Both the position numbers and the translations under genes were made by a program. Of a stretch of 64,000 bases of DNA, positions 28,186 through 34,292 are shown piece after piece. The notes beneath the pieces are model-generated. The model had not been told where the DNA came from, ran no database searches, and worked only from the letters and a program-made list of their open reading frames with translations. The stretch lies in the NCBI RefSeq assembly GCF_000238775.2, contig NZ_AFEJ02000002.1, positions 744,001 to 808,000 of the forward strand, written 5' to 3'. This DNA comes from Acaryochloris sp. CCMEE 5410 (GTDB lineage Bacteria; Cyanobacteriota; Cyanobacteriia; Thermosynechococcales; Thermosynechococcaceae). Numbering within the stretch: position 1 is the stretch's first letter; each line of letters starts with the position of its first letter.

Positions 28186-29412
28186 ATGATCAGCCGTCCT
28201 GCCAACACTTCTCTTGCAGCACCTTGGGGTGCCCCCCTTTCTGATGCAGCCAAACGGTTGCTGTTGTTGGGGTCAGGAGAACTAGGTCGGGAAGTGGCCC
28301 TAGAGGCTATGCGTTTGGGGATTGAAGTGATTGCAGTGGATGCCTATGATCATGCCCCTGCAATGCAGTTTGCCCATCGGAGTGTTGTGATCAATATGCA
28401 GGATGGGGCGGCCCTGCGTCAGATTGTAGAGTCTGTGAAACCGGATCTGATCGTGCCGGAAATTGAAGCCATTGCCACTGCAACGCTGCTCGACCTAGAA
28501 GCGGAAGGATGGAATGTAATTCCCACGGCTAAAGCAACTAATCTGACTATGGATCGGGAAGGCATTCGGCGTCTAGCAGCTAGTGATTTAGGTCTAAAAA
28601 CCTCCCCCTTTCAGTTTGCTTCTACTCAAGCTGAATATGAGCAGGCCGTGCAGCAAGTTGGTCTTCCCTGCGTGGTCAAACCTGTCATGAGTTCTTCAGG
28701 CAAAGGGCAAAGCTTAGTCAAAACAGATAGTGAAATTATCCCAGCCTGGACCTATGCTCTAGAAGCCGGACGTGGCAATGCCCCTCGCGTCATCGTTGAA
28801 GGCTTTGTCGAATTCGAAACAGAAATTACTTTACTCACCGTGCGGTCCCAGTCGGGCACCCACTTCTGCCCTCCCATTGGTCATGTCCAGCAAAGCGGGG
28901 ACTATCGAGAGTCCTGGCAACCCTGCCCTCTCCATCTTGATACGCTGCAAGCGTGCCAAGATATGGCCCGCCAAATTACGGATGCCCTAGGGGGCTGGGG
29001 GTTGTTTGGAGTGGAACTTTTTATTGCCGGCCCTGCCGATCAGGCCCAGACGGTGTATTTCAGCGAAGTCAGCCCGCGCCCCCACGATACAGGCATGGTC
29101 ACCATGGTCAGCCAAAACATGTCAGAGTTTGAGCTACATGCTCGCGCTATACTGGGACTCCCCATTGGCGATATCCAGCTGGTTAGCCCAGGAGCGTCTG
29201 CAGTCATTTTGGCCTCAGAAGCATCTAAGGAACCCAAGATTGAAGGTGTTGCTGCAGCTCTTACGGTGCCAACCAGTCGCGTGCGCCTATTTGGCAAACC
29301 CACTGCCCATAAAAATCGACGGATGGGGGTGGCCCTAGCCCTCGGTGAGACGATAGAAGAAGCCAGACAACGAGCTAAAACCTGTGCCCAGCAAGTTACC
29401 GTTACTAGTTAA
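28186..29412 (+). CDS. purT: formate-dependent GAR transformylase (PurT)
   Basis: The 408-residue ATP-grasp enzyme uses formate and ATP to formylate glycinamide ribonucleotide in purine synthesis. The N-terminal [17 protein letters not shown] and [15 protein letters not shown] are PurT hallmarks, followed by [29 protein letters not shown] (ATP loop) and [16 protein letters not shown]. Length is normal for PurT (about 390-410). It is divergent from lysC with about 150 bases between. The gene is monocistronic by position. Confidence 0.94.
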
Positions 29413-29671: not shown

Positions 29672-29698
29672 TTAGCACTCACTACCTTGGAGTGCTAA
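29672..29698 (+). promoter_or_regulatory. CIRCE operator (HrcA binding site)
   Basis: TTAGCACTC (29672-29680), a 9-base spacer, then GAGTGCTAA (29690-29698). This is an exact match to the CIRCE consensus, the operator of the heat-shock repressor HrcA, which usually precedes groESL or groEL. Here the next gene is an unknown 100-residue protein whose ATG is 82 bases downstream; no chaperonin gene is in the window. Confidence 0.95.
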
Positions 29699-29779
29699 AT
29701 AATAAAGATTTTGCCGACTATTTAAGCTGGAAATGATGTTAGGGGCACCATTAGTAAAAGCTTAACCAGGAGTGATGCT

Positions 29780-30082
29780 ATGACTTTACACATTGAATTT
29801 AAGTCTAGTACGATCCAATTCTGGAAACAGTTAGAGATGTTCCAAGCCTTTATCCAATATCCAGAATTAGGGGTTCAGGTCTCTATTGATCAAGATCCAA
29901 TTAACCGAATTTTTCTCCGTTCTGAGCATTGTGGGATTGAGGTTCCTGAACGACCCACTATCATGTTTCAAGCCACTATTATTGATGCTCTTCCTTTGGC
30001 ATCTGTTGAAGCTATGATTCAACGATTTACTTTTAAAACAGAAGAGCAATCTTGTATTGCAACCCTTGGATTAATGTCTTAA
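29780..30082 (+). CDS. unknown 100-aa protein behind a CIRCE operator
   Basis: A small soluble protein (starts MTLHIEFKSSTIQFWKQLEM, ends SCIATLGLMS) with no recognised domain, no signal peptide and no membrane segment. It is preceded by AGGAG at good spacing and by a perfect CIRCE operator 82 bases upstream. It is followed by a 43-bp palindrome that may be its terminator. So the gene appears to be a compact heat-shock-type single-gene unit. Known HrcA targets are chaperonins, so a role in protein stress is inferred only. Sequence features such as ERPTIMFQATIIDALPL do not point to a fold that I recognise. Confidence 0.75.
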   Translation: MTLHIEFKSSTIQFWKQLEMFQAFIQYPELGVQVSIDQDPINRIFLRSEHCGIEVPERPTIMFQATIIDALPLASVEAMIQRFTFKTEEQSCIATLGLMS

Positions 30083-30128: not shown

Positions 30129-30171
30129 AAATGCTGTAGCAGTTAAGCAATGCTTAACTGCTACAGCATTT
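30129..30171 (+). terminator. 43-bp palindrome, likely terminator
   Basis: AAATGCTGTAGCAGTTAAGC is mirrored by GCTTAACTGCTACAGCATTT with only a few central bases, giving a stem of about 19-20 bp. It lies 46 bases after the stop of the CIRCE-controlled gene. The T tract is short (TTTT), so termination strength is uncertain. The palindrome would work equally in both directions. Confidence 0.55.
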
Positions 30172-31428: not shown

Positions 31429-32027
31429 GTTAATATTCTAGAAAAGCCCACAAGGGAGTGACCTTATCTTGTTGCAAAAGTTTAAATATCCAGAAAAAGG
31501 CATAGATCTTGCCCCATCTCTATAACCTTTGTGGCGGTATAAAAGCGAATTAGAAATAGGTGAGCCGCAGACCTCAACTATCCAGTTGTTAAAGTTGTAC
31601 TGGCAGTTCCAAAGGTCTTGAGTGGGAAAGATGGTTAATCTCCTACCTGAAAAAACTCCTAGACATCACCCGTGCTCCAAAGTTCTTTCGGGGTTGATGG
31701 GTTTATGCATTGGAGATGCACTGGGCGTACCCGTTGAATTCCTGAGTCGAGAGGAGTTGATGGAGAGTCCAGTGACCGATCTGGATAGCCGAAATGAATG
31801 GCGGGAACCGCCCGGAACATGGTCCGATGATAGCTCTTTAACCTTTTGTCTAGCGGATAGTCTGTGTGATGGATTCTCACTTCAAGCTATCACAAATTCC
31901 TTCTGTCGCTGGTATTACGAACAAGAATGGACGGCACGGGGAAAAGTATTTGATATTGGCATTACGACTCAGATGGCGATTGAGAAATTACGTAACGGTG
32001 TGTCACCGCTTGAAGCGGGTGATACGG

Positions 32028-33192
32028 CAGGGTTGTTTTACGTTCCTCCTAGAAAAAATAGGATGGTTCTACTGACCAACAGTAGAGAGACCGATGAGCC
32101 ATCTAATCGATACTTTGAAGCAAGTCCCGGATTTCCGCAGTGCCCATGGCCGTATTCATCCGTTATGGCTGCTGTTGCTATTGATGGTGATGGGCATGCT
32201 TGCTGGATATCAAGGGTACCGTCCGTTAGAAACCTTTGTGAGCGATTATCGCCAGCCTTTAAGTGAGCTATTGGGGCTTGAGAGCCTCGAAGTTCCGTCT
32301 CACTGTACCTTTCGTCGAGTGATGAAGGGGCTTGACTTCCAAGCGTTGAGCCACCAATTTGAAGCATGGATGCTCTCGAAAGCCCAGACTCACTCTCCCG
32401 ATAATTATGCAGCCTCCATTGATGGCAAACGGATTCGTCAGGGGCTGACAGATGCCAAGGGGAAGCAGCGTTTTGTAGGGTTGGTGAGTTTATTTGCGGT
32501 GGAAGCAGGCATCACCCTCAAGCTCGAAGCCCTCACTCAGGAGGATAATAGCGAAATCAAAGTCGTCCAGGCACTGTTGGAAACCCTTCAACTCGATGGC
32601 TTGCTGATTACCATGGATGCCTTACACGCCCAAAAAACACTTGAGAAGATTGTGGCCTCGGGTAACGACTATCTTGTGGCGGTCAAATCCAATCAGGGAA
32701 GACTTTACGACCACCTCCAGACTTACTTTGAGTGTCTTAAACCCATGGCTGAGCACATCCACTCCGCCCAAAGTAGAGGACGAGATGAACATCGGTGTAT
32801 ACAGGTTTATGAGCCTGTCGGCATAGCCCTACAAGAATGGGAGGCAATTCGCTCTGTGCTTTGTGTCCAACGATGGGGCACTCGCAAAGGAAAGGAGTAT
32901 CACAATACGGCCTATTACATCAGTTCAGCTGCCACCTCACCCCAGCATTGGCAATCTCTGGTCCGAGAACATTGGGGCATTGAAAATCGGTTGCATTGGC
33001 CGAAGGATGTTGTTTTTGGCGAAGATGATTATCGACTCGAAGATGAACAAGCACTGCTCAATTGGTCAGTGCTTAGAACTATTGGGATTAATATCCTGCG
33101 GCTAAACGACTATCAATCCCTCAAAACCGCGATGACTAAGCTTGCTAATCGGGTCGATATTATTTTTTCGCTGCTAACTTAAAACAGCCCTG
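32028..33192 (+). mobile_element. ISAs1-family insertion sequence, copy 2 (intact)
   Basis: The 1165-bp element lies between 13-bp imperfect inverted repeats: CAGGGTTGTTTTA at 32028 and the complement of CAGGGCTGTTTTA ending at 33192. It is flanked by a perfect 10-bp duplication, GGTGATACGG (32018-32027 and 33193-33202). The transposase frame is intact, so this copy could be active. It disrupts the ADP-ribosylglycohydrolase gene. Confidence 0.95.
32094..33182 (+). CDS. ISAs1-family transposase
   Basis: A complete 362-residue transposase with the DDE-type ISAs1 fold. It starts MSHLIDTLKQVPDFRSAHGR and shows RVMKGLDFQALSHQFEAWM, then AASIDGKRIRQGLTDAKGKQ with the first Asp, LLITMDALHAQKTLEKI with the second, and REHWGIENRLHWPKDVVFGE near the end, with the catalytic Glu. 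The A6 run here is one base shorter than in the broken copy at 6646-7735. It is probably the master for both copies. Confidence 0.93.
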   Translation: MSHLIDTLKQVPDFRSAHGRIHPLWLLLLLMVMGMLAGYQGYRPLETFVSDYRQPLSELLGLESLEVPSHCTFRRVMKGLDFQALSHQFEAWMLSKAQTHSPDNYAASIDGKRIRQGLTDAKGKQRFVGLVSLFAVEAGITLKLEALTQEDNSEIKVVQALLETLQLDGLLITMDALHAQKTLEKIVASGNDYLVAVKSNQGRLYDHLQTYFECLKPMAEHIHSAQSRGRDEHRCIQVYEPVGIALQEWEAIRSVLCVQRWGTRKGKEYHNTAYYISSAATSPQHWQSLVREHWGIENRLHWPKDVVFGEDDYRLEDEQALLNWSVLRTIGINILRLNDYQSLKTAMTKLANRVDIIFSLLT

Positions 33193-33779
33193 GGTGATAC
33201 GGTGGAGCGGAGCAATGGCAATGGTTCATTAATGCGGATTTTGCCGATGGCTTATTGCTACCAAACGGTTGATTTACCCACCTTGATCCATAGAGTTCAT
33301 CAGGTCTCGTGTATCACCCATGCTCATCCTCGATCGCAAATGGCCTGTGGAATCTACACCTGTATTGCCATCGCCTTACTTCAAGGAGCTAATCCTAGAG
33401 ATGCTTATGTCAAAGGATTGGATCAAGCTGAGGAGGTTTACCAAGCCTTTCCATACCTTCTAGAAAAGCACCATTTTGAGCGGATATTTAACCGGGATAT
33501 AGACCATTTACCGATTGAAAGTATCAATTCAGAAGGGTATGTGATTGACACCTTAGAAGCGGCGCTATGGTGCTTACTCACAACATCCTCATACCCAGAG
33601 GCAGTATTAAAGGCAGTCAATCTGGGTGAAGATACAGATACAACTGCAGCGGTAACAGGAGGGCTGGCAGGGATTCATTATGGAATAGAAAATATTCCAT
33701 CTAATTGGATTAACGGAATTGCGCGTTCGCAAGATATTCAAAAATTGGCAGATCGCCTGGAAACTTCTCTACTCCAATC

Positions 33780-34292
33780 ATGACTGTTTCACATGAAATT
33801 GTTGGACAATTTGTGGATGCCGCTGTACTGGATTCACAGCTAGCAAATCGTCTGTTGCAAAAACATCCTGAGCTGAAATCTGCAACATTGCTTGGCGAAT
33901 CGCTCCTTCACTTCTTGGCTATCGAAAATTACCCTAACGGTATCCGTTTCCTAGTGAAGCGGGGCTGGTCTATTGATGAATGTGAAGAGGATGGAACAAC
34001 ACCATTGATTAGTGCTGTGTTCGTCGGGGCATTTGATGCAGCAGTCGCATTACTTGAACTTGGGGCGGATCCGAATGCTGTCTCGGATACATATGACAAC
34101 CCGCTCCACTGTGCTATTTCTGATGGCAATATCAAACTGGTTGACCTCCTGCTCAAAGGTGGAGCAACTCCTTTGTATAAAATGAATTGTGGAACCACCG
34201 CTTTTGATGTGCTGCCTAATAACAAACCCGAAAAAAATGCCACAATTAGAGCAATGTTAAGAGAGCATGGTTGGGTTGCACCTGATGAGTGA
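33780..34292 (+). CDS. ankyrin-repeat protein
   Basis: The 170-residue protein contains at least three ankyrin repeats: GESLLHFLAIENYPNGIRFL, DGTTPLISAVFVGAFDAAVA and YDNPLHCAISDGNIKLVDLL, each followed by a LGADPN-like turn. It overlaps the ADP-ribosylglycohydrolase stop by 4 bases (ATGA), so the two were translationally coupled before the IS insertion. After that insertion its expression may depend on promoters inside or near the element. Ankyrin repeats mediate protein binding; partner unknown. Confidence 0.8.
   Translation: MTVSHEIVGQFVDAAVLDSQLANRLLQKHPELKSATLLGESLLHFLAIENYPNGIRFLVKRGWSIDECEEDGTTPLISAVFVGAFDAAVALLELGADPNAVSDTYDNPLHCAISDGNIKLVDLLLKGGATPLYKMNCGTTAFDVLPNNKPEKNATIRAMLREHGWVAPDE

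Follow-up and report, generated by a model that had tools for sequence, protein, structure and literature searches.

A CIRCE operator kept upstream of a rare orphan gene in Acaryochloris points to a probable HrcA target that is not a chaperonin

The DNA analyzed here, a 64-kb stretch of the Acaryochloris sp. CCMEE 5410 genome spanning positions 744001-808000 of contig C2 (hereafter, the window), carries on its forward strand an exact copy of the CIRCE operator (TTAGCACTC-N9-GAGTGCTAA, 0 mismatches), downstream of which lies a 100-codon open reading frame that we named X100 (Table 1). Farther downstream, a 66-aa open reading frame and then a TetR regulator are both encoded on the opposite strand, so that X100 is the only obvious target of the operator. 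A first-pass annotation of this DNA had described just such an arrangement, i.e., an exact CIRCE site with no chaperonin in reach, placed before a single small gene that has its own AGGAG and a strong palindrome after it, and all of these elements were located. The missing chaperonin was borne out by tblastn, as the organism's own GroES and GroEL (the first 350 aa of the latter) gave no match at E ≤ 1e-3 across the whole window. At 31622-33783, an ADP-ribosylglycohydrolase-like gene is seemingly split by a transposase ORF (32094-33182), as judged by eye.

Table 1. Features in and around the CIRCE-X100 unit (positions in the window)
Feature	Position	Strand	Basis and details
purT	28186..29412	+	Pfam ATP-grasp and PurT_C; upstream flank, outside the unit
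CIRCE operator (putative)	29672..29698	+	Exact match; arms of 9 bp (29672-29680, 29690-29698), loop of 9 nt (29681-29689)
5' leader, CIRCE to start codon	29699..29779	+	81 nt; 78% identity with IP29b
AGGAG ribosome-binding site	29768..29772	+	Read from the sequence; 7 nt before the ATG
X100, acidic orphan protein, 100 aa	29780..30082	+	ORF with ATG; dN/dS; no family match
Hairpin	30129..30171	+	20 bp, loop of 3 nt, dG -32.5 kcal/mol, z -8.6

When the window was searched for CIRCE with up to three mismatches, this site was the sole match, where shuffled sequences lead one to expect 0.01; under a base-composition model using the composition of the window, an exact site is expected about 1.3e-4 times in a genome of 8.09 Mb. 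Across the 8.09 Mb of the genome, three CIRCE sites have at most one mismatch, and they precede groESL, groEL2 and X100. Two more CIRCE-like places carry three mismatches each, a number close to the expectation of the composition model. Both CIRCE-groE units are located on contig C1, and the genome encodes HrcA itself (PF01628 above cut-off at G000:C2:872120-872842). The distance from CIRCE to the ATG is greater at X100 than at groESL (36 nt) or groEL2 (66 nt), and in other genomes many groE genes have their CIRCE even farther off than the 81-82 nt found at X100. Clearly conserved promoter hexamers were not found beside the X100 operator. The K-box consensus had no match in the window; one is present at the organism's own groESL and none at its groEL2.

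To gauge how unusual it is for CIRCE to precede a non-chaperonin gene, we considered a sample of 92 cyanobacterial loci (sites with ≤1 mismatch among the matches listed in the family, and ≤2 for 16 genomes), counting a site as groE-linked when groES or groEL follows it at a distance of no more than 700 bp. Among the matches listed, 85 of these 92 CIRCE-like sites precede groES or groEL, three precede X100, two precede members of a second orphan family of 113 aa (see below) and two precede neither. In this sample the motif thus marks known HrcA targets faithfully. Of the two sites before neither, the one at locus L066, with two mismatches, runs into the 3' part of a long ORF at its end and probably arose by chance; the other, a one-mismatch CIRCE at L075:2001-2027 (genome G034), lies within a long ORF with neither groE nor an orphan-family gene nearby. 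Two other places in this material are recorded here as observations: a diverged CIRCE with two mismatches (L056, G004:C219:247-273) precedes an additional groES-groEL pair of Acaryochloris sp. IP29b; and in genome G005 hrcA consists of two overlapping frame pieces (L101 and L102, G005:C172:38296-39020), maybe through a frameshift or an error in the metagenome-assembled genome, with two CIRCE sites still present before groES and groEL.

X100 encodes a protein of 11.5 kDa with a pI of 4.8 and without any membrane-type hydrophobic stretch. By its pattern of substitutions, the gene is under purifying selection and evolves as a protein (dN/dS 0.12, window versus the IP29b orthologue). In line with the first-pass description of an unknown protein, searches of Pfam (even at E ≤ 10), NCBIfam, PHROGs and the PDB sequences gave no match to X100; they showed no recognizable chaperone signature and no homology to GroES or GroEL. 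It likewise had no curated match to known heat-shock families, the small HSPs included, its fold itself not being predictable: an AlphaFold model built from three sequences reached a mean pLDDT of 36 and is unusable.

The leader between CIRCE and the start codon is likely transcribed. An RNA thermometer within it was considered and rejected, as folding did not rise above that of shuffled sequences (z +1.3 and +0.85). Short blocks in the leader are common to all three genomes that carry X100 (ATAAAGA, a G-rich stretch before ATTA, and TTAACC), and the AGGAG is also present in IP29b and absent in Lyngbya confervoides BDU141951. The hairpin downstream of X100 is the probable end of the transcript, which would make X100 a single-gene unit; its T tail is short and weak, and a terminator scan gave no entry there. 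The notion that it is a mobile repeat was rejected because its arm is single-copy, with no other occurrence in the genome at ≤2 mismatches, and Rfam returned only sub-threshold, microRNA-like matches to it.

X100 is rare. It was found in three of 97 relatives, the genome under study included, and a three-row X100 profile run against 388 genomes of the class gave convincing E-values only in the same three. Two orthologues are therefore known, namely those of Acaryochloris sp. IP29b (IP29b_bin.176, genome G004; 82% identity) and L. confervoides BDU141951 (genome G012; 52%). Among named genome contigs, a single-sequence search gave no relative and the three-row profile gave these same two organisms; plasmid records and viral contigs gave none. 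Weak profile matches in G306, G282 and G058 (E 0.006-0.01) were taken as chance, being partial and in two cases interrupted by internal stop codons; the DNA around them held no CIRCE better than five mismatches.

The first-pass annotation had proposed, as a check, asking whether CIRCE precedes the orthologues, and the answer was positive: the operator stands before all three X100 genes found, with 0 mismatches in Acaryochloris sp. CCMEE 5410, 0 in IP29b and 2 in L. confervoides, and at a spacing from the ATG of 81, 81 and 82 nt, respectively. Under the composition model, the chance of meeting a CIRCE with ≤2 mismatches in 120 positions is ~3e-6. All three genomes encode hrcA. The basis for this conservation is a set of three genomes, of which two belong to the same genus. 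Between Acaryochloris sp. CCMEE 5410 and IP29b, the CIRCE arms are identical (18/18), compared with 5/9 for the loop, 47% for the upstream DNA, 78% for the leader and 82% for the coding sequence. Since the loop sequence differs in all three loci, the arms appear to have been kept by selection rather than by recent copying.

Comparing loci with and without X100 suggested that operator and gene travel together. In another Acaryochloris genome (G002), which keeps purT, the 66-aa gene and the TetR gene, 206 bp separate purT from the 66-aa gene, compared with 958 bp in the window, and neither X100 nor any CIRCE better than five mismatches occurs at the locus. The purT locus of genome G001 likewise has neither, and in L. 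confervoides the CIRCE-X100 unit sits in a different neighborhood, the purT locus of that genome being without it. Given this joint presence and absence, CIRCE and X100 seem, by comparison of these loci, to come and go together as a single unit. Completeness is 82-92% for the other six Acaryochloris genomes, and it is therefore uncertain that they lack X100 at other places.

Cyanobacterial HrcA is a repressor of groE genes that acts through CIRCE; heat inactivates it, and GroEL restores it (PMC7760821). For groES of Synechocystis, the reported transcription start is the first base of the loop within CIRCE (PMC2662882). We consider it very likely that X100 is a single-gene unit repressed by HrcA through CIRCE and derepressed together with groESL and groEL2 upon folding stress. 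By analogy with other systems, X100 transcription would start in or just before CIRCE, HrcA would bind the operator and block initiation, and heat or another protein-folding stress would inactivate HrcA, releasing X100 alongside groESL and groEL2. X100 thus very probably belongs to the HrcA regulon as a non-chaperonin gene, as the first-pass annotation had supposed, a reading favored by the presence of CIRCE before 3/3 X100 genes. That it is a new heat-shock protein is plausible; our guess is that its product could be a small soluble helper under folding stress, e.g., an accessory to GroEL or a factor for a client set special to the lineage.

The role of the protein has a rival reading. X100 may be controlled by HrcA and yet serve a purpose other than folding, e.g., upkeep of the photosynthetic apparatus, and we give this slightly less than an even chance; it competes with the guessed role and not with HrcA control. 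Nothing speaks directly against it. The lack of a chaperone signature speaks for it, as does the fact that the named X100 relatives come only from Acaryochloris and L. confervoides, and precedents exist, HrcA being described as affecting non-chaperones in Helicobacter pylori (PMC6843607) and the non-chaperone gene wcw_0502 of the Chlamydiota (PMC12038028).

It is highly unlikely that the palindrome works mainly at the RNA level, as a 5'-terminal stem-loop of the X100 mRNA that governs stability or translation, instead of as an HrcA operator. As RNA it does fold well (dG -16.3, z -6.5), and the groES leader is described as having a structured element to which CIRCE belongs (PMC2662882); however, it is the letters of the arms themselves that are kept between Acaryochloris sp. 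CCMEE 5410 and IP29b, and the two changed letters in L. confervoides break the outermost and the innermost pair without any compensating change, although both are deviations from the HrcA consensus as well. Least probable of all is that CIRCE has no function here, being a remnant or duplicate of a groE promoter that ended up in front of an unrelated gene, X100, for even if the rarity of X100 and its different neighborhood in L. confervoides mark the region as mobile or turning over, the DNA flanking the operator bears no clear likeness to the organism's own groESL and groEL2 promoters beyond CIRCE, and the site was kept down to 52% protein identity at a nearly fixed spacing while the upstream non-coding DNA drifted.

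The proposed HrcA control of X100 is best set against two known systems. The first is that of the cyanobacterial groESL and groEL2 genes, with which X100 shares an identical operator in a genome that has hrcA and two CIRCE-groE units, and from which it differs in that the target is an orphan protein of 100 aa. Cyanobacterial CIRCE/HrcA targets are given as groESL1 and groEL2 in the literature consulted (PMC4390874, PMC2758279, PMC5381637), and other genes affected by deletion of hrcA lack CIRCE, according to a review (PMC7760821). The second is wcw_0502 of Waddlia, a non-chaperone gene described as lying behind a conserved CIRCE and as being occupied by HrcA in ChIP-qPCR (PMC12038028). Here too CIRCE is kept before orthologues of a non-chaperone gene; in contrast to X100, wcw_0502 belongs to unrelated bacteria and encodes a putative secretion-system effector, the comparison being by published description (PMC12038028). 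Other phyla thus offer known cases of genes that HrcA targets, or that depend on it, without being chaperone genes (PMC12038028, PMC6843607). One paper that couples a "hypothetical protein" with HrcA and CIRCE (PMC7734504) was set aside, as the protein it describes is GroES-like and not a new target.

A second family of small orphan proteins, of 113 aa (L069:1346-1684, minus strand, with relatives in L103-L191), has relatives in 88 of 194 genomes of the class. Of its 90 matches, 88 genes were used; we dropped the second piece of a split gene in G063 and a match in G139 that tblastn did not find again. CIRCE (≤2 mismatches, ≤450 bp upstream) precedes 19 of the 88 genes, in 8 of 28 cyanobacterial families: every gene in f32 (8/8), f20 (3/3), f2 (2/2), f23 (2/2) and f29, f31 and f37 (1/1 each), and 1/4 in f3. 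Two of the 19 sites (G047 and G050) are those that led to the discovery of the family. Seven further genes have a CIRCE-like sequence with three or four mismatches, and the remainder have nothing near. As a control, a reversed CIRCE pattern was run on 89 stretches taken from the starts of the loci rather than from the upstream regions themselves, and it never came below five mismatches. No groE was found near the 19 sites, in the 0.7 to 4 kb of DNA around each.

These observations make the 113-aa family a second and broader candidate for the non-chaperonin part of the HrcA regulon; if real, its control by HrcA would depend on the lineage. Like X100, it is a small protein of orphan type, and CIRCE precedes its gene in part of its genomes; unlike X100, it is far more broadly distributed, and no homology between the two was detected. 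In hhalign the family and X100 gave no alignment (probability 0.7%, the X100 profile holding three sequences only), and the 113-aa protein was not found in the genome of Acaryochloris sp. CCMEE 5410 or in L. confervoides. The initial proposal of a non-chaperonin HrcA target is supported, with the amendment that X100 is rare and is not the sole non-chaperonin gene to follow a CIRCE in cyanobacteria.

X100 as a member of the regulon, beside the wider CIRCE-linked 113-aa family, appears to be new as far as the open-access literature search reaches; within that literature we found no report of CIRCE before a cyanobacterial non-chaperonin gene, which is weak evidence, as subscription papers lay outside its scope. 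The CIRCE kept before X100 designates a specific and testable extra candidate target of HrcA, the 113-aa family brings in another with a much wider distribution, and together they offer a way into an uncharted part of the cyanobacterial heat response. More speculatively, cyanobacterial HrcA may govern, besides chaperonins, a set of small orphan proteins (X100 in Acaryochloris and Lyngbya, the 113-aa family in at least 8 cyanobacterial families) that fill one role and replace each other by lineage, such as that of GroEL accessory factors or of regulators of HrcA itself; we hold this broader scheme to be rather unlikely.

AlphaFold gave the 113-aa family a confident alpha/beta fold (pLDDT 91). 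A fold search of the PDB gave no clear match (best Foldseek E 0.64), and VIA-align against the PDB reached a best Z of 4.0, a value that common arrangements also give. The best PDB sequence match was 2eby (E 0.0008), over a stretch of 64 positions. Scattered weak matches of some members to known families (best E 0.0003 in Pfam and 0.0024 in NCBIfam) were taken as chance, as any one such family was matched by 1 to 6 of the 64 members. At L071:2001-2300 (G050), the 113-aa gene that follows an exact CIRCE matches the family in its first half only, and by eye the same locus carries a TnpB-like, transposon-associated ORF on the opposite strand.
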